Position numbers and translations under genes: made by a program. Under the pieces are notes generated by a model that worked only from the letters and a program-made list of their open reading frames with translations, was not told the origin of the DNA and did no database searches. Below are positions 6,116-63,448 of a stretch of 64,000 nt of DNA, piece by piece; position 1 is the first letter of the stretch; each line of letters starts with the position of its first letter. The stretch is from assembly GCA_025924315.1 (NCBI GenBank), contig JAICIO010000023.1, positions 1 to 64,000 of the forward strand, given 5' to 3'. Origin of the DNA: Phycisphaerae bacterium (GTDB lineage: Bacteria; Planctomycetota; Phycisphaerae; Tepidisphaerales; Tepidisphaeraceae).

Positions 6116-6198
6116 TTTGTAGGGTCCGCTTCAGCGGACCGGTTATTTGCTTTTTCGAACGGAAGAAGTAACCGGTCCGCTGAAGCGGACCCTACAAA
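6116..6198. repeat. REPIN-like doublet, GTAG family type I, copy B
   Basis: Arms at 6119-6145 and 6169-6195 are inverted copies of GTAG plus the hairpin GGTCCGC-TTCA-GCGGACC and an inner CGGTTA extension. The complementarity extends outward by three bases (TTT before the left arm, AAA after the right). Read on the minus strand, the right arm head TTTGTAGGG contains the TAG stop codon of the DUF420 gene (6192-6194). Confidence 0.93.
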
Positions 6199-8276: not shown

Positions 8277-8288
8277 AGAGTTTGTATT

Positions 8289-8365
8289 GTAGGGTCCGCT
8301 TCAGCGGACCGGTTATTTTCTTTTGGGAACCCAATGAATAACCGGTCCGCTGAAGCGGACCCTAC
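8289..8365. repeat. REPIN-like doublet, GTAG family type I, copy C
   Basis: The left arm begins GTAGGGTCCGC at 8289 and the right arm ends CCCTAC at 8365, with inner GGTTATT/AATAACC pairing. Each arm contains the hairpin GGTCCGC-TTCA-GCGGACC. It lies between the stop of the endonuclease-like gene and the start of the ABC-2 permease, so it is in the permease leader region. Confidence 0.93.
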
Positions 8366-17671: not shown

Positions 17672-18622
17672 TTAAGCGAGCCGCTGAGCGATCAGCAGCC
17701 CTTGAACGGTTGAATCATCGAACAGAACGATGCGCCACTTCGGATCCGCCGCGATGGCGGCACAGACCATGAAATTCTTGATCGACTTCGGAAAGAAAAT
17801 GTCGTGAAATGCCGCGAGCCCACCGATCGCAATTCGATCCTTGAGGGTGAGCCATTCGACCGCCGAGCTCACCTCGCCGGAATCGAAGAAGATCAAGTCA
17901 AAAATCTGATTGGGATCGATCTGGGAATCGAAAACCGTCGCGCTGAACTGCTCGAGAAACGCGATGTCTTTCGCGAATCGCCCGGAGGGACTCAGCTTAT
18001 CGAGCAGTTTGCTCGGGAACACCAATCCGCCGCGGTCGAGAAACAACTGCGACATCGTCCACTGATCGGACCCGAAAGCTTTATTCACCTGCTCGACGCG
18101 CGCCTCCGGCATCGGCAGCACAAACGCGTCCAGCGCGCTGGCGACGTCTTTGGCGGGAATACCGCCAAAATCACTTCGCGGACCGGATTCAAAATGCTCG
18201 CGAAGCTGCGTCGCGGTAATCGACACGCCTTGCACGAGTTTCACATTCGCTTCGATCTTCGCGATGTCGGTCGGCGAGGGGATATACGACCGCATTGGCG
18301 CGAAGTCGGCATCGACGGTCGTGATGTTCGCCTTCGTTCGCTCCGCGTAGCTGGCCCACAGCGCGGTCGAGAGACCCGCGCCGAGCTCGAGGATATTTCG
18401 GCAGCCCTGATGCAGCGCGAGCTGCACCATCTTCATGTAAACCGGCAACGACTCGTAGTAATACTGATTGCGATAGTGCAGCTTGCCATAGCTCAGCTGT
18501 CGCGTGGCTTCTTCGGCGTTGCGCGGAACGCTCGCGAGGAACTTGCGGCGCGTGAACTGCGACCGCTGCACGCGGTCGATTTTCTCTGCGTTCTCACGCG
18601 AGGTTGCAGCCAGCGAGTACAT
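17672..18622 (-). CDS. class I SAM-dependent methyltransferase-like protein
   Basis: A 316-residue protein with a Rossmann-type methyltransferase core. NILELGAGLSTALWASYAE (about residue 77) is motif I, TTVDADF the acidic motif II region, and DLIFFDSGEV a motif IV-like strand. The N-terminal 70 residues are helical and basic. The ATG at 18622 overlaps the upstream stop as TGATG, so it is coupled to the glycan transferase gene. The context is surface polysaccharide, so methylation of a sugar or peptide substrate is plausible. The acceptor is not identifiable. Confidence 0.72.
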   Translation of the reverse strand: MYSLAATSRENAEKIDRVQRSQFTRRKFLASVPRNAEEATRQLSYGKLHYRNQYYYESLPVYMKMVQLALHQGCRNILELGAGLSTALWASYAERTKANITTVDADFAPMRSYIPSPTDIAKIEANVKLVQGVSITATQLREHFESGPRSDFGGIPAKDVASALDAFVLPMPEARVEQVNKAFGSDQWTMSQLFLDRGGLVFPSKLLDKLSPSGRFAKDIAFLEQFSATVFDSQIDPNQIFDLIFFDSGEVSSAVEWLTLKDRIAIGGLAAFHDIFFPKSIKNFMVCAAIAADPKWRIVLFDDSTVQGLLIAQRLA

Positions 18623-19917
18623 CACGCGGACCTCCTCGCGGGCTGCGCCGATTGATTGACGAGCTGTTCCAGGAATCGCACGTAGCGCGGAAGAACGTCA
18701 TCGTCGGGGCAATCGATCATTTCGCCGATGAATCGTTGGCGGTCGAAGGGTTGATAGAAATCCTCCGAACCCTTCGCCATGAGCGATCGCACGGTTTCCA
18801 GAACATCGTCACGGCAGCGCATCTCGGTAGAAGGGATGATCTTCGCAACGGTGGAATACCCCGCGTGCAGGTACTCCATCGACAACACCGGCTTGCCGAC
18901 TTTCACGGCTTCGAACGAAACGCTCGTCGCGACATCAAGCACCGCGTCGCACCAGCGAAGCAGCGAGCCGGAGTGAACGTCGTCGAATGCGAATTGAAGA
19001 TTGGCGATCGGTTTCTTCTGCAGCTCTTCGTAAAAAGGTCGGAGTGGATCGGAGCCGCTGGGGCGCGTGTGGTGTTTCACCACGAGGCGGATCTTCGGGT
19101 CAGCCGTCAGCATGCGAATCGTGCGGACGACTTCGTCCCAGAAGATTGGGTACTGCGGGCTGCGGAGGAAAAAGACGAGGTTGAGATTCTGTGGCGAGGG
19201 CGTCTCGCCCTCGCGAGGGCAGGATGCCCTCGCCACAAAATCAAAAGACGGCGTGAGCGATTCGAGTTCCCACAGCCATGCGGAGTTGTAGCGCGGCGAG
19301 CCGAGGACGCGAATGCGCTCCGGTTCCATGAAAGGGCGGTAGCGCTTGGCGCAAAGTTCGTTCGGCACGACGACCGAATCGAAGATCGTCGCGGCCTTAT
19401 AGATCTCGCGCCACGCGTAGTTCAGATCATCCGCGGCGATCATTTCGTTGCCGTGGGGGCTGTCGCCGTGCGGGAGTGAAACGATCGGCAGCCCGCGGCG
19501 GCGTGCGATCTCGGCCGCGCGCTGCGCCACGGGAAGCGCGGCCGCGGAGGTGCTCATGATCCAGTCGAAGCAGACCGGGCCGGTTTCGTTTGCGAAGACG
19601 TGATCGAAGGCGCGGTTCAGGACCTGGTAGTCGTAAACGTTCGAGATGCGAACGTCTTTCGGCGTGTCGCTCTTCGTGCTCGCAACGATCGCTTTCTTCT
19701 CGTCGAGCTGCGGTTTGCTTAGGAATTCATCGATGTAGTGCAGCGAGTAATTCTCGAACTTCCGCAGCATCTGCAGGCGGAAATCGTTCAGATATTCCGG
19801 CAGCGAGTACACGACCGCGGTCGCGCGATGTCCGGCGCTGAGCCATGCGTGCATCACGGGGACCATGTGGTCGATGTCGTTGTAGTGCCGGAGAAAAAAG
19901 AGTGCTGTTTGAGACAT
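18622..19917 (-). CDS. GT-B-like surface-glycan transferase (CDP-glycerol/Kdo-transferase-like fold)
   Basis: A 431-residue protein with two Rossmann-like halves. The N-terminal half starts at MSQTALFFLRHYNDIDHM and contains CFDWIMSTSAAALPVAQRA and SLPHGDSPHGNEM. The C-terminal half contains LVVKHHTRPSG and a donor-site-like stretch DAVLDVATSVSFEAVKVGKPVLSMEYL. This pattern resembles polysaccharide glycosyl/glycerophosphotransferases, but no exact family is certain. The start at 19917 is chosen from this natural N-terminus; the longer frame begins in the acetyltransferase region. A 46-base repeat (19191-19236) is translated within it. Confidence 0.65.
   Translation of the reverse strand: MSQTALFFLRHYNDIDHMVPVMHAWLSAGHRATAVVYSLPEYLNDFRLQMLRKFENYSLHYIDEFLSKPQLDEKKAIVASTKSDTPKDVRISNVYDYQVLNRAFDHVFANETGPVCFDWIMSTSAAALPVAQRAAEIARRRGLPIVSLPHGDSPHGNEMIAADDLNYAWREIYKAATIFDSVVVPNELCAKRYRPFMEPERIRVLGSPRYNSAWLWELESLTPSFDFVARASCPREGETPSPQNLNLVFFLRSPQYPIFWDEVVRTIRMLTADPKIRLVVKHHTRPSGSDPLRPFYEELQKKPIANLQFAFDDVHSGSLLRWCDAVLDVATSVSFEAVKVGKPVLSMEYLHAGYSTVAKIIPSTEMRCRDDVLETVRSLMAKGSEDFYQPFDRQRFIGEMIDCPDDDVLPRYVRFLEQLVNQSAQPARRSA
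19191..19236. repeat. GTGG-headed hairpin doublet located inside a coding sequence
   Basis: Two abutting 23-base arms (19191-19213 and 19214-19236), each GTGG plus a hairpin when read from its outer end: CGAGGGCG-TCT-CGCCCTCG and CGAGGGCA-TCC-TGCCCTCG. The closing pair changes from G-C to A-T between arms, preserving the stem. It is read through by the glycan transferase gene, encoding ARASCPREGETPSP. The same family occurs at 61377-61458. Confidence 0.88.
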
Positions 19918-29111: not shown

Positions 29112-29119
29112 ACGATCTT

Positions 29120-29195
29120 GTAGGGTGCGCTTCAGCGCACCGGTTATTGTTTTTCGAGCTGGAAGGAATAACCGGTGCGCTGAAGCGCACCCTAC
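29120..29195. repeat. REPIN-like doublet, GTAG family type II (GC/GC stem), copy D
   Basis: Same layout as copies B, C, E, F and G but with the stem GGTGCGC-TTCA-GCGCACC: the variable stem pair has changed on both sides and both arms agree. The left arm starts GTAGGG at 29120 and the right ends CCCTAC at 29195. The inner CGGTTATT extension is conserved. It lies between the convergent first PhyH gene and the small membrane protein. Confidence 0.93.
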
Positions 29196-43510: not shown

Positions 43511-45001
43511 ATGCATGCCTCTATGGCGCATCGCATCGCTCATTCATTCGTGCTATCGCTCGTCCTCCTGCCGCTCCACGTTTTCGCAATTCAGTTTCGT
43601 GTGACATCCGAGGGCGATACGCCGGTCGGTCGCTTAATCGTTTTCCTCATCAAAGACGGAAGCGGAATCGACGGGAAAGTGCCACCCATCAGCGGACCAT
43701 TCTGGTCCAAGCCGCAGCCGATGTATGGCATCGATCTCGATCATGCCGCGACAAACGGTTCGTTCACCATCGATGATCGCGCGACGGCATTTCCCGATGC
43801 GCCGAGCAAATTGCTCGCGGGGACATACCGCGCGCAGGCGGCGCTGATCGCGCACCACGAGACTGGCTCGTGGCACAACGAAGCGGGCAATCAGTATTCG
43901 GATCCGGTTGCATTCACCGCGAGCGATGATCCGAAGCAAGTCGTCAAACTATCGCTCACTCACGAAACAAGTCCGCGAGAGATCAAACCCTCGCCGGCGG
44001 TGACGCTCTTTCGTCTGCGCTCGGCGTTGCTCTCGAAATTCCACCATCGCGATGTGTTTCTGACGGCCGGTGTCGTGCAGCCGCTCGATTTCGATCCGAA
44101 CGTTCATTACCCGGCGGTCTATGAAGTGCCCGGTTTCGGTGGCACCGCGCTGGCCGCGTACGAGCGTCACAACTCGCGGGCGAATTCAAAGGATGCCGAT
44201 GCACTGGAGCTTTCGCGAAAGGCGTATTGGATCGTCATCGATCCCGAATTCGTTCACGGCCACACGCTACTCGCGAATTCGGACGTCAACGGCCCCTGGG
44301 GCGATGCGGTGATCAACGAATTGATTCCCGCGCTCGAAGCGAAATTCAACCTGATCTCCTCGCCGCGCAGTCGCGTCATTCGCGGGCATTCTTCGGGTGG
44401 TTGGGCGGCGCTGTGGCTGGCGACGCAGTATCCAGAAACGTTCGCCGGCTGCTGGGCTCTCTCGCCGGACCCGGTTGATTTTCATCACGTTTTGCGGCTC
44501 AACATCTACGACTTCGACAACGCGTACGTGCAGAATGGCGGCGAGGTTTCGACCGTTCGCAACGGAAAGGCGACCGTTCGCGAGGAGAACCGGATCGAAG
44601 AAGTGCTCGGCCCGGACAACGCATCCGATCAGCAATGGGATTCATGGCAGGCAGTGTGGGGCCATCGCGATTCGAGAGGGAATGCGAACGTGCTCTTCGA
44701 CCCGATCACCGGCGCCATCAATCGCGCCGAGGCCGATTCGTATCGCCGATATGACATCGTCGATCTCGTGAAGCGCGATCCGAAGCATTATGCGCCGATG
44801 TTCCGAGATCGGATTCATGTCATCGTCGGTGATGCGGACACGTATTACCTGAACGAGGCCGTCGTCGCGTTGAAGGAAGAACTCGATTCGCTCAATGCGG
44901 GCGGAAATGTTCAGATCCTCCCAGGCTTCACGCACGGGTCGATCGTCGGCTCGCCACAAGCCAAACAAATCTCGCGGGCGATGATCGAGGCGCTCAAGTA
45001 G
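43511..45001 (+). CDS. secreted alpha/beta-hydrolase esterase-like protein
   Basis: A protein of about 496 residues with a signal peptide (SFVLSLVLLPLHVFA). An N-terminal beta-rich domain (residues 30-190) precedes an alpha/beta hydrolase of the putative-esterase (Fes/esterase D-like) type. The strand HYPAVYEVPGFGG, the nucleophile elbow RVIRGHSSGGWAALWLA, a candidate acid in VIVGDADTYYL and a His in PGFTHGSIVG complete the triad. Substrates could be carbohydrate or siderophore esters. The stop codon TAG at 44999-45001 belongs to the head of repeat copy E. An ATG at 43523 is an alternative start. Confidence 0.82.
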   Translation: MHASMAHRIAHSFVLSLVLLPLHVFAIQFRVTSEGDTPVGRLIVFLIKDGSGIDGKVPPISGPFWSKPQPMYGIDLDHAATNGSFTIDDRATAFPDAPSKLLAGTYRAQAALIAHHETGSWHNEAGNQYSDPVAFTASDDPKQVVKLSLTHETSPREIKPSPAVTLFRLRSALLSKFHHRDVFLTAGVVQPLDFDPNVHYPAVYEVPGFGGTALAAYERHNSRANSKDADALELSRKAYWIVIDPEFVHGHTLLANSDVNGPWGDAVINELIPALEAKFNLISSPRSRVIRGHSSGGWAALWLATQYPETFAGCWALSPDPVDFHHVLRLNIYDFDNAYVQNGGEVSTVRNGKATVREENRIEEVLGPDNASDQQWDSWQAVWGHRDSRGNANVLFDPITGAINRAEADSYRRYDIVDLVKRDPKHYAPMFRDRIHVIVGDADTYYLNEAVVALKEELDSLNAGGNVQILPGFTHGSIVGSPQAKQISRAMIEALK

Positions 45002-45076
45002 GGTCCGCTTCAGCGGACCGGTTACTTGTATTGTTTTGAAACGAAAAAATAACCGGTCCGCTGAAGCGGACCCTAC
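44998..45076. repeat. REPIN-like doublet, GTAG family type I, copy E (ends two convergent genes)
   Basis: The left arm (from 44998) and right arm (to 45076) are inverted GTAG-headed hairpins with the stem GGTCCGC-TTCA-GCGGACC and the CGGTTA inner extension. The left head GTAGGG supplies the TAG of the plus-strand esterase (44999-45001) and the right head supplies the TAG of the minus-strand methyltransferase (45073-45075). Both neighbouring genes therefore end within the element. Confidence 0.95.
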
Positions 45077-45693
45077 AAATCAGGAGAGGGGAGCAGACGC
45101 CGGCGGGCAATGCCGTGCGTCCATTGTTGATCTTCAGAGCCGGGGCGCGTGTCACCTTGCTGCGAGGTTTCGATTCCTTCGAGCAGAGGTTGGCGGGCGA
45201 GCGTTTCGCGAAGGCGCTTCGGCGTGTAATCGTTAAAGAGTCGGCCGTCGATGTTGATGCGCTCACCATCGCCGAATTTTACCGTCATGTACAGTGCGCC
45301 GCCTGGCTTGAGCGCACGCGCGAGTCGGCTCAGCACATCGTCGATTTCGCGATCGGGCACGTGCAGCAGCGACGCCGATGCCCAGATTCCGTCGTATGTT
45401 TCGCGATCATTCACGTCGGCAAATCGCATGACGCGAACCGGATGGCCGGTGTATTTCTCCGCAAGCTTCGCCATTTCCTTTGAGGCATCGAAGGCAGTCA
45501 CTTTATAGCCGAGATCGAGAAAAGCCTTCGTGTCGCGGCCGGAACCACAACCGGCGTCGAGAATGTGCGCGCCCGGCTTCAGCATGGCGAGAAACCGCGG
45601 ATAGGTCTCGTCCAGCGTTCGCGACATGGTTCGCGCGGAGAATGCGTCCGCGTGCTCGTCGTAATAGCGCTCGGTCGGATCTTGCTCGCTCAT
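45073..45693 (-). CDS. class I SAM-dependent methyltransferase
   Basis: A 206-residue methyltransferase of the Methyltransf_11/25 type. Motif I is ILDAGCGSGRDTKAFLDLGY and motif II the TAFDAS strand. YDGIWASASLLHVP is motif IV, and the ALKPGGALYMTVKFG post-motif is present. The C-terminal end (RRRLLPSPDL) is short and irregular, and its stop TAG lies in repeat copy E, so the last codons may have been altered by the element. The substrate is unknown. It diverges from alaS with a 74-base gap. Confidence 0.87.
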   Translation of the reverse strand: MSEQDPTERYYDEHADAFSARTMSRTLDETYPRFLAMLKPGAHILDAGCGSGRDTKAFLDLGYKVTAFDASKEMAKLAEKYTGHPVRVMRFADVNDRETYDGIWASASLLHVPDREIDDVLSRLARALKPGGALYMTVKFGDGERINIDGRLFNDYTPKRLRETLARQPLLEGIETSQQGDTRPGSEDQQWTHGIARRRLLPSPDL

Positions 45694-49613: not shown

Positions 49614-49633
49614 CGTTCGTTCTCCGCACTCTT

Positions 49634-49709
49634 GTAGGGTCCGCTTCAGCGGACCGGTTATTCTCCGGTGCCAGCACATGAGTAACCGGTCCGCTGAAGC
49701 GGACCCTAC
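49634..49709. repeat. REPIN-like doublet, GTAG family type I, copy F (ends the GH88 gene)
   Basis: Inverted GTAG-headed hairpins with stem GGTCCGC-TTCA-GCGGACC; the left head begins at 49634 and the right ends at 49709. On the minus strand the right head provides the TAG stop (49706-49708) of the GH88-like gene. The plus-strand gene on the left ends independently at 49613. Confidence 0.95.
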
Positions 49710-59263: not shown

Positions 59264-61372
59264 ATGAGCCCGCGGCGTAGCCGCGTCGCTTCGTATTGGC
59301 TGGGAAACGCTCTTTCAGCATCGATAGGATTGGTCTCTCATCTGAGTAGGACGTTGGTTAACTTCATCAAACTGATCTTCCGCAACACGTTTGGCAGCGT
59401 CATTTTCGGCATCACGATCATGGCGCTGACGGCGGCTTACATCGCCATCGGGTCAGGGATGCCGTCGATCCGCGCGTACTTCGAAATGAGCGATCTGCAG
59501 TTCTTCAACGCCTGGCCGCTGAAGACGCTGATGTTCCTGCTCATCGTGAATTTGATCACGGTGACGTGGCAACGCATTCCCTTTACGCCACCGCGCTACG
59601 GAGTCTGGTGCGTGCACGCGGGAATCATTGTGCTGATCATCGGGACGGCCTCGTACTACGCGAAGAAGGTCGAAGGTCTCGCTCGCATTCCGGTTGGACA
59701 AACCGTCGATCATTACTATGACTCCACCGAACGCGCCCTCTACGCAAAGGTTGGTCATCAGATCGGCCAAGCCTGGCCCCTGCCGTCGCTTCCGCGGTTT
59801 GCGACGTACGACGAAGCGCACGGCAACGCGAGCAAGCTTCGCGGAAGCGATCTGACCGAGATCGGCCCGGGGATGAAACTGCAGCAGGCGCTGGGCCTCG
59901 ACAAGCCCGTCGAAACGAGGATCACCGCCTTCTATCCGTACGCCGACATCGTCACCGATTACGCCGACGCCCCCGACGGCACTGAGCACGGGGTCGAGTG
60001 CAGCCTCGTCGATGCCCATGGCGAAGGCACTGGTGGCGTTTCGTTCTGGCTGGTGGGCTCCGATCCGCGAACGGTTCGCAACATGCTCGGCATCGACTTC
60101 GAGCATCGCCATCTTCCGCACAGCTTCGAGCCGTCGCTGCTCCAGGAAGCGGTCGACAACATCCACAAGCTCGACGTCAAGCTGAAGGACTTCTCGCAGA
60201 CTCTTTCGGTCGAAGTCGGCAAGGATTATCCGCTTGGCAACACGGGCTACACGCTTTCGATCACGCAGTTCGATCCGTCCTTCCCGACGATGGCGGGGAA
60301 GATCGTTCCGCTGCTCACCATGATGGTGAAGACGCCGACGCAGCAGTTTCGCCGGCAGGTGATTCCGGATGGTCCGACGACGGATTGGAAGCTGAACGTC
60401 GAAGGCGCCGGCCCATTCGGCAAGCGTCAAACCGCGCCGCTCGATCCGGATCTGAAGATCAGCTACTCAATGAGCGATCCATTCCATCTGCTCCCTGGGC
60501 AGGGGATGGAAAAGCACACGTACATCACCTCGGAAAAGCCGGGCATTTACGAGATCATCACGCGGCTCGATGGGCCGTCGGAAGTGAAGAGCTACGACAC
60601 GAATCAGGTTGATGTGCAGATCGCGGAGAACGAGCCGCGCGGGCCGTTCCAGCCGCCGCCGGATCCGAACGAGCCGAAGCATCTGCACGCGATGCGCGTC
60701 GAGCGATTCGATCACATCAAGCGCACCGATAGCGTGCGCGAAACCCCGGCGGTGAAACGCGATCGCGACGCGGCCTCGGTGGGGATGTTCCAGATCGTGA
60801 ACGTGCATCTCAGTTGCGGCGACTGGTCGCGCGATCTGCTCGTTCCCTACACGCAGTGGACGATGGAAGATCCGTGGGGCGGGGCGACGGTGTCGATTCC
60901 GGGCGCGAAATCGGATCTGCAGCTGCAGCTTGGGAATACCGCGCTAGTCATGCCCGCGAAGGTCACGCTGCAGAAGTTTGATCTAATTCCTTACCCTGGC
61001 GGACGCGCCGCCGCGGGTAGCATGATGCGCGATTTCCGCTCGACGCTGATTTTTGAGGACAACAACACCGGCGAGAAAACGACAGGCGTTGCGAAGATGA
61101 ACAGCCCCGTTTACTACGACGGCGGAGACTGGACTTTCTTCCAGGCGCAGTGGGATCCGAACGGCCAGAAGTGGACGGTGCTCGGCGTGGGCAATCGTCC
61201 GTTCGTCGACACGATGATCCTCGGTTGCGGGATGATCTTCGTCGGATTGATGTACGCGTTCTACCTCAAGCCGATCATCATTCGACGGATGAAGCAGAAC
61301 GCGATTGAAAAGGCGAAACAGAACGCATCGGCAAAGAAGTCGCCGAAGTCGAAAGAGCTGGTCGCCAGTTAA
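59264..61372 (+). CDS. resB: ResB-like cytochrome c biogenesis protein (system II)
   Basis: A 702-residue inner-membrane protein. Helices near residues 45-62 and 88-108 (LKTLMFLLIVNLITVTW) plus one at about 118-135 precede a long periplasmic domain (residues 140-650), and a final helix (FVDTMILGCGMIFVGLMYAFYL) ends it. That layout fits ResB/Ccs1, which with CcsA/ResC delivers haem to apocytochrome c in the periplasm. The downstream CcsA-type gene supports the call. The start is uncertain by up to 40 residues because an ATG at about 59420 is also in frame; the ATG at 59264 is used. Confidence 0.85.
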   Translation: MSPRRSRVASYWLGNALSASIGLVSHLSRTLVNFIKLIFRNTFGSVIFGITIMALTAAYIAIGSGMPSIRAYFEMSDLQFFNAWPLKTLMFLLIVNLITVTWQRIPFTPPRYGVWCVHAGIIVLIIGTASYYAKKVEGLARIPVGQTVDHYYDSTERALYAKVGHQIGQAWPLPSLPRFATYDEAHGNASKLRGSDLTEIGPGMKLQQALGLDKPVETRITAFYPYADIVTDYADAPDGTEHGVECSLVDAHGEGTGGVSFWLVGSDPRTVRNMLGIDFEHRHLPHSFEPSLLQEAVDNIHKLDVKLKDFSQTLSVEVGKDYPLGNTGYTLSITQFDPSFPTMAGKIVPLLTMMVKTPTQQFRRQVIPDGPTTDWKLNVEGAGPFGKRQTAPLDPDLKISYSMSDPFHLLPGQGMEKHTYITSEKPGIYEIITRLDGPSEVKSYDTNQVDVQIAENEPRGPFQPPPDPNEPKHLHAMRVERFDHIKRTDSVRETPAVKRDRDAASVGMFQIVNVHLSCGDWSRDLLVPYTQWTMEDPWGGATVSIPGAKSDLQLQLGNTALVMPAKVTLQKFDLIPYPGGRAAAGSMMRDFRSTLIFEDNNTGEKTTGVAKMNSPVYYDGGDWTFFQAQWDPNGQKWTVLGVGNRPFVDTMILGCGMIFVGLMYAFYLKPIIIRRMKQNAIEKAKQNASAKKSPKSKELVAS

Positions 61373-61376
61373 GAAT

Positions 61377-61458
61377 GTCGCGAGAGCATCGTGCCCTCGC
61401 ATTTGCGGCTTGAGCCGCACCAGCGTGAATAATGCCGAGGGCGAGACGCCCTCGCCAC
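61377..61458. repeat. GTGG-headed hairpin doublet, same family as 19191
   Basis: The right arm (61436-61458) is the exact complement of the GTGGCGAGGGCGTCTCGCCC arm of the element at 19191; the left arm (61377-61399) is a mutated copy. A further stem GCGGCT-TG-AGCCGC lies between them (61405-61418). It fills the gap between resB and the next gene. Confidence 0.83.
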
Positions 61459-61463
61459 GAATC

Positions 61464-62183
61464 ATGAAGAAACTTAGTCTTATCGTTGCAGTGTTGTTGA
61501 CGGCCCTCGTTGCCCGCGCGGATGACTTCGCAGACAAAGTCGACGTTACGCCGCTTGAGAAGATCACGGTTCAGTATCGCCAGACGCTCAAGACACTCGA
61601 CAGCTTCTCGCGAGAAGTGCTTGGGCAGATCACCGGCCGTTCGACCTTTCAAGGTCAGAGGCCGACGTTCACCGTTCTCGACATGGCCTTTCGGCCGGAG
61701 AATTACACGAAGCTCAACATGGTGAAGATCCGCCACGTCCCGCTGCGGCAGGATCTTCGCCAGCTCGATTCGCTTTCGCCGGACGAAGCCGATCGCATCG
61801 TGAAGCAGGGGACAGTGTCCTACCAGTTTCTCTACAGCGAGCCGACCCGCGCGCTGATGGAGAAGATTATGTCGTCGGCGGTCACGAAATCGAACGCGAT
61901 CGAAGAAGTGTACGGCTCGGTCAACACGATGGACGCGCTGTTCGCGCCGAACTCGCCGATCCTGCGCCTGATTCCGCCGGCGACCAACGCGAGCGACGAT
62001 CAGATCTGGCACAACCTCGACGAGATCGGCGGATGGATCGAAAAGCTCAAGCAATCGAAAGATGACCCCGGCGCGAAACCTCTGCTCGCCTATGGTGAAA
62101 ATCGCATTCCGCTGCTCGGTGATGCGTGTGCCGACCTGCTGCATCTTCGCGATGCGTGGGAGAGGGCGACGCGAGCGAGGTGA
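61464..62183 (+). CDS. N-terminal part of a ResC-like protein (frame broken before the CcsA domain)
   Basis: A 239-residue secreted or periplasmic protein with a signal peptide (about residues 1-20). Its end, KPLLAYGENRIPLLGD then LLHLRDAWERATRAR, is abnormal; in the +1 frame the sequence goes on as GDASEVNKNIVALADSLPK and the CcsA helices. The likeliest reading is one protein of about 608 residues (61464-63289) with a single base missing near 62163. If instead this is a separate gene, its stop overlaps a GTG of the next gene. The N-terminal region is a soluble domain often found before the ResC core in planctomycetes. Confidence 0.75.
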   Translation: MKKLSLIVAVLLTALVARADDFADKVDVTPLEKITVQYRQTLKTLDSFSREVLGQITGRSTFQGQRPTFTVLDMAFRPENYTKLNMVKIRHVPLRQDLRQLDSLSPDEADRIVKQGTVSYQFLYSEPTRALMEKIMSSAVTKSNAIEEVYGSVNTMDALFAPNSPILRLIPPATNASDDQIWHNLDEIGGWIEKLKQSKDDPGAKPLLAYGENRIPLLGDACADLLHLRDAWERATRAR

Positions 62184-63289: not shown

Positions 63290-63299
63290 TCGCGGCATT

Positions 63300-63375
63300 G
63301 TAGGGTCCGCTTCAGCGGACCGGTTATTCCTTGGCTCGAAAAGGTGAATAACCGGTCCGCTGAAGCGGACCCTAC
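63300..63375. repeat. REPIN-like doublet, GTAG family type I, copy G
   Basis: The left head GTAG at 63300 and right end CTAC at 63375 bound an inverted pair with stem GGTCCGC-TTCA-GCGGACC and inner CGGTTATT/AATAACCG. It begins ten bases after the ccsA stop. Confidence 0.95.
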
Positions 63376-63448
63376 AGGGCCGACAATTCTTCGCGCTCCC
63401 GCATTTTCCATGGAAACCTAAGCTCTCCTATACATCTTGGGAGAGCAT

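Follow-up and report, generated by a model that had tools for sequence, protein, structure and literature searches.

A 46-nt palindrome within a glycan-transferase-like gene of the 64,000-nt stretch of DNA analysed here (the window) is very probably a REPIN of a private GTGGCGAGGGC family that was inserted frame-neutrally into linker-coding sequence, and the peptide that it would contribute most likely has no function. REPINs are inverted REP doublets that form hairpins and are thought to be mobilised by RAYTs (Bertels and Rainey, 2011, PMC3116915). Positions 19191-19213 of the window read GTGGCGAGGGCGTCTCGCCCTCG and are directly abutted by CGAGGGCAGGATGCCCTCGCCAC at 19214-19236. Each half is a complete REP, in which a GTGG tag is followed by a 7-bp stem (CGAGGGC/GCCCTCG) enclosing a 5-nt loop, so that both arms carry the terminal GTAG/GTRG and the 5-9 bp hairpin that define GTRG-type REPs. 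The features concerned are as follows.

18622..19917, minus strand: host gene, encoding a 431-aa GT-B-fold transferase-like protein in a surface-glycan gene cluster, with peptide V228-P242 derived from the element
19191..19236, no strand assigned: REP doublet (short REPIN) of 46 nt, made of two 23-nt REPs that face each other and abut directly, defined by sequence reading, arm search and folding
19191..19213, plus strand: REP arm 1, GTGG tag and CGAGGGC-GTCTC-GCCCTCG hairpin, the exact family consensus
19214..19236, minus strand: REP arm 2, GTGG tag and CGAGGGC-ATCCT-GCCCTCG hairpin, a variant also present in three other copies
19190..19237, no strand assigned: element including the outermost T:A base pair, 48 nt or 16 codons, probably the true frame-neutral unit

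Because the arms are inverted, the doublet can also fold as a single long hairpin. Single-strand folding of the window element yields -24.6 kcal/mol, compared with -9.4 +/- 2.2 kcal/mol in shuffled sequences (z = -6.85), and none of 200 shuffles is as stable. Within 19184-19243 the flanks prolong the stem imperfectly (GATTTT / AGAATC, 5 of 6 pairs), possibly by chance. A sequence-only reading of this DNA had described a GTGG doublet of two abutting 23-base arms in an open frame; its coordinates and anatomy are exact, and the minus-strand frame is open throughout.

The element belongs to a large family in its genome (G000; a 6.57-Mb draft in 262 contigs with 97% completeness). The 23-nt arm matches this genome 133 times (64 + 69, allowing up to three mismatches), versus no match for a control pattern read backwards, and the family is therefore not a product of chance. 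Inverted doublets predominate, as expected of REPINs: the 68 sites that we read comprise 47 pairs and 21 singles, and 39 of the pairs are exactly 70 nt long. This 70-nt form consists of two REPs and a 24-nt middle segment, usually a third small hairpin, GCGGCtNNaGCCGC, and four of its six reading frames are mostly open. The window copy, which does without the middle segment, is the sole 46-nt abutting form among the 68 sites; the segment may have been lost by this copy or by its source copy. Three copies in the genome lie clearly within genes, namely those for the transferase, DnaE and UvrA. The copy outside genes that the sequence-only reading had placed at 61377 is real, occupying the intergenic space between a stop codon at 61370-61372 and an ATG at 61465. 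Many REPIN copies (L005, L007, L010, L012, L018, L024 and others) sit inside a larger palindrome, gagcgtgtgatcttttcagc ... gcaaaaaatcacagactctc; a search for an empty form of this composite palindrome (TGTGATYTTTT...AAARATCACA) found none. The window also holds six copies of a second REPIN family, GTAGGGTCCGCTTCAGCGGACC...GGTCCGCTGAAGCGGACCCTAC, of about 78 nt.

61377..61458, no strand assigned: second window copy of the first family, intergenic, 82 nt, its 5' arm degenerate and its 3' arm of exact consensus sequence
6117-6195, 8287-8365, 29118-29195, 44998-45078, 49632-49709 and 63298-63376: second-family REPIN copies

Beyond this genome the family is nearly absent. The pattern GTGGCGAGGGC-N5-GCCCTCG occurs 123 times in G000 and in none of 391 other genomes of the phylum, a single near-match to the REP was found in one other genome of the bacterial family, and the 70-nt element had no match on plasmids. 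Its restriction to one of 392 phylum genomes indicates a recent origin. Sister REPs (GTRG-CAYGGGY...) are abundant in other family members, where arm matches number as many as 820 in G014, 403 in G004 and 363 in G020, and give no match in half of the family genomes. As to a cognate transposase, GTGGCGAGGGC is absent within about 1.5 kb of ten genes with a Y1_Tnp domain in this 262-contig, 97%-complete draft, in which a gene may have been missed, and none of these ten loci shows the arrangement expected of a REPIN system, a RAYT flanked by the same REP. We take the strongest Y1_Tnp match, at locus L031, to resemble IS200 TnpA more than a RAYT. At another locus (L038, on contig C20), a RAYT-like Y1 transposase ORF at 1033-1914 has GTGGCACAG-type REPs on both sides, at 438-537 and 1943-2024; this locus is a REPtron of a different REP family.

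The host gene adjoins genes for a cytidylyltransferase, a methyltransferase and a hexapeptide acyltransferase, which place it in a surface-glycan cluster. Pfam returned only sub-threshold hints for its product, to capsule synthesis and GT4 families, and a search of solved structures with the host sequence found nothing. Five orthologues from Nitrosomonas and Nitrosovibrio, at 38-41% identity, align end to end with the protein and share conserved motifs with it on either side of the element. The element codes for VARASCPREGETPSP (V228-P242) and the first base of Q243; the peptide proposed earlier, ARASCPREGETPSP, lacks the leading V. All five orthologues have an 11-residue gap falling exactly within VARASCPREGETPSP. 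The case thus conforms to the definition of an intragenic REP, which lies within an ORF of more than 120 aa (here 431 aa) with homology on both sides. It had also been claimed that the insert is a mobile repeat and not a conserved protein feature, with distant orthologues sharing the peptide as the counter-case. The claim is borne out by the dispersed repeat family and by the orthologues, every one of which lacks the peptide. Since the net gain relative to these distant proteins is 11 residues and not 16, the length of the linker must have been altered by other changes as well.

An AlphaFold model of the protein (mean pLDDT 64.5) shows residues 222-242 as the coil of lowest confidence, bounded by the helix that ends the first half (212-221) and the strand that opens the second (245-251). 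Structural comparison ranks GT-B-type proteins highest, namely UDP-GlcNAc 2-epimerases and glycosyltransferases, with a TM of about 0.5, so that the resemblance holds at the level of the fold only. The element peptide is thus predicted to occupy the linker between two domains of a GT-B-like fold. No orthologue of the host protein was found in 25 other genomes of the family or in 391 other genomes of the phylum, a distribution that suggests horizontal acquisition of the gene; accordingly, close relatives offer no empty site for comparison, and the nearest orthologues are only about 40% identical.

How an insert of 46 nt, which leaves a remainder of one on division by three, can preserve a reading frame is addressed by the other in-gene copies. 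From GTRG to CYAC, all nine clean in-gene doublets of this genome and its relatives are 1 mod 3 in length (46, 70, 70, 82, 85, 100, 103, 115 and 133 nt). Doublets sampled from G004 are mostly 135 or 134 nt long, whereas the in-gene copy measures 133 nt. In that genome, a C precedes 66 of 66 arms, giving a palindrome of the form C-GTRG...CYAC-G, so that the repeat there includes the base pair just beyond the tags. G000 shows this outer pair less clearly, with a pyrimidine at 37 of 48 flank positions and complementarity in 11 of 24 cases. One added base pair turns all nine clean in-gene elements into multiples of three. With its outermost pair counted in, the window element becomes T-46-A, 48 nt or 16 codons, and the frame puzzle probably disappears. 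The assertion in the sequence-only reading that the frame must have been restored by flanking changes or duplicated target bases is therefore unnecessary, as the probable 48-nt unit would be frame-neutral already. No direct target duplication is visible in the flanks of the window element (TTTT / AGAA). A 2-bp target duplication was likewise rejected as the cause: of the nine clean in-gene doublets, only the UvrA copy of G011 is flanked by directly repeated dinucleotides (GA...GA), and for this reason we prefer the explanation based on the outer base pair. A common contribution of +2 by the insertion reaction would give the same pattern, and 70 nt is the default length in G000 anyway.

Two further in-gene copies of G000 lie in genes for DnaE and UvrA. 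A full 70-nt REPIN is found in frame in dnaE (L004, contig C2), with the PHP, DNA_pol3_alpha and finger domains distributed over its two sides, and is read as GGEGVSPSNSPREGQERGQDALAT; uvrA (L055, contig C13) carries one intact REP and a decayed partner, again in frame, and Pfam domains flank both copies on both sides. Orthologues of the two proteins were aligned across the family and the linker DNA was then read. The DnaE linker holds strict GTRG doublets in G004, G014 and G000 and decayed ones in G011 and G006, and the UvrA linker holds strict doublets in G011, G014 and G025 and altered ones in G023 and G000. The sequences of the doublets at these shared linkers differ between genera. A scan of all DnaE and UvrA loci (216 kb, in which two entries represent one and the same G004 gene) detected strict doublets only at the two linkers, and none in the reversed control. 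On a DnaE tree computed with the linker left out, the trait requires five changes, at least three of which are forced by well-supported branches.

These sites also accommodate other inserts. In two more genera (L124 in G005 and L120 in G007) the DnaE linker contains a long non-REP palindrome that is read in frame, and where the UvrA linker has no REP (L143 in G021 and L147 in G005) it includes translated low-complexity repeats such as TCAGTCCTCAGTCCTCAGTCC. In many other genera, the linkers at these positions are short and plain. The DnaE and UvrA linkers thus accept repeat-derived inserts repeatedly, an outcome compatible with insertion preference, retention or mere permissiveness. We tentatively entertain the narrower possibility that they are recurrent landing sites for REPINs in this family of bacteria, where genome-specific doublets of frame-keeping length (1 mod 3), different from genus to genus, arrive by repeated independent insertion or as the current REP type continually replaces an old insert.

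We propose that the window element is a non-autonomous palindromic element of the GTRG (GTAG/GTGG-tagged) REP superfamily that would be mobilised as a single strand, presumably in trans by a RAYT (TnpA-REP) transposase. TnpA-REP cuts single-stranded REPs adjacent to the structure, and where the tag is GTGG the cleavage position can move to CC (PMC8266576). A member of the GTGGCGAGGGC family would have entered the sequence for the disordered inter-domain linker of the transferase-like gene. Because most core frames contain few stop codons and the unit with its outer pair measures 48 nt, the insertion would be frame-neutral and the gene would stay open, the linker gaining about 16 residues if the message is translated as predicted. 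The peptide would be tolerated because linkers are permissive, and is presumably neutral. Across the bacterial family, the linkers of DnaE and UvrA appear to have been struck repeatedly by similar events.

A less favourable view of the host gene is that it is a decaying pseudogene or a weakly used ORF, in which a REPIN is tolerated as the protein no longer matters. The lack of an orthologue in the family and phylum samples would fit a dispensable, probably transferred glycan gene, and high GC favours long chance ORFs, the plus strand being open for 291 codons too. We nevertheless consider this view unlikely, given that 431 codons are open with codon-position GC of the coding type on both sides of the element, that the motifs shared with the five proteobacterial orthologues are conserved on both sides, and that the same element resides in DnaE and UvrA, proteins that must work. 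The plus-strand ORF was itself rejected as the gene, since orthologues exist for the minus frame only. Local duplication or slippage, or a protein-coding repeat, could in principle have produced the palindrome without any mobile element, and the 46-nt abutting form is indeed unique in the genome, with flanks that extend its stem imperfectly. Both arms match a genome-wide family, however, one of them exactly, and these copies effectively refute a local origin, which we regard as extremely improbable.

The doublet might instead be retained by selection, either because its hairpin has a regulatory role in mRNA or in single-stranded DNA or because its peptide tunes the host linker. Such a role would account for the way in which several genera hold REP doublets of differing sequence at shared positions in DnaE and UvrA, and for the single reading frame common to all ten 5' arms at these linkers. 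Yet the non-REP palindromes, low-complexity stretches and short plain forms of these linkers are what sites that are simply permissive would be expected to show, most carriers of the doublets are REP-rich genomes, and the choice of frame may reflect avoidance of stops (the TAG in GTAG) and of bulky peptides; selection on the in-gene copy therefore seems to us improbable. An inserted REPIN with a functionless peptide is the reading that we retain.

The family resembles the REPINs of Bertels and Rainey (PMC3116915) in its two inverted, tagged short hairpins, its high copy number and its excess of doublets over singlets, and its modal length of 70 nt in G000 is close to that of the 71-bp GI doublets. 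Unlike those elements, the window copy is tagged GTGG rather than GTAG, lies in a coding frame rather than extragenically and has no spacer, and no cognate RAYT was found adjoining this REP. Intragenic GTAG/CGTC REPs have been described as dimers that add 20-30 residues to ORFs including uvrA, dnaE2 and dnaE; Opitutus terrae is among the organisms in which uvrA and dnaE2 are hit, and GTGG tag variants occur in O. terrae GTAG-20 (Di Nocera et al., 2013, PMC3733652). Since in-gene REPs, including those in uvrA and dnaE2, were thus published in 2013, the window copy belongs to a known kind, with which its family shares in-ORF REP dimers, copies in uvrA and DNA polymerase III alpha-type genes, and GTGG tags. 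In that study, genes of one category were mostly hit at different sites, except for recB in two Xanthomonas species, whereas here different REP sequences share the same DnaE and UvrA linkers in several genera; the REP sequence and the host gene are also different. The classical in-gene case is that of the Rickettsia palindromic elements (RPEs; Ogata et al., reviewed in PMC10969869), which are likewise palindromic mobile elements in frame in unrelated protein genes. RPEs are about 150 bp long, encode a conserved peptide and are in part CGTC-tagged; the window element, a GTGG-tagged doublet of 46 nt whose sequence is private to G000 within the sampled phylum, falls outside that group.

Two points add to what was known: the probable frame-neutral unit of 48 or 72 nt, and the repeated occupation of the DnaE and UvrA linkers, which is the most interesting extension. 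A REPIN effectively behaves as a coding cassette that leaves the frame unchanged and is open to exaptation into proteins, and insertions of peptides such as GEGVSPS...GQDALAT are to be expected when REP-rich genomes are annotated. The DnaE and UvrA linkers, repeatedly filled in some genomes and empty in others, form a natural series from which rules of insertion (element ends, target choice and frame constraint) might be derived. If these linkers are recurrent landing sites, REPINs may preferentially enter, or be retained in, DNA replication and repair genes.
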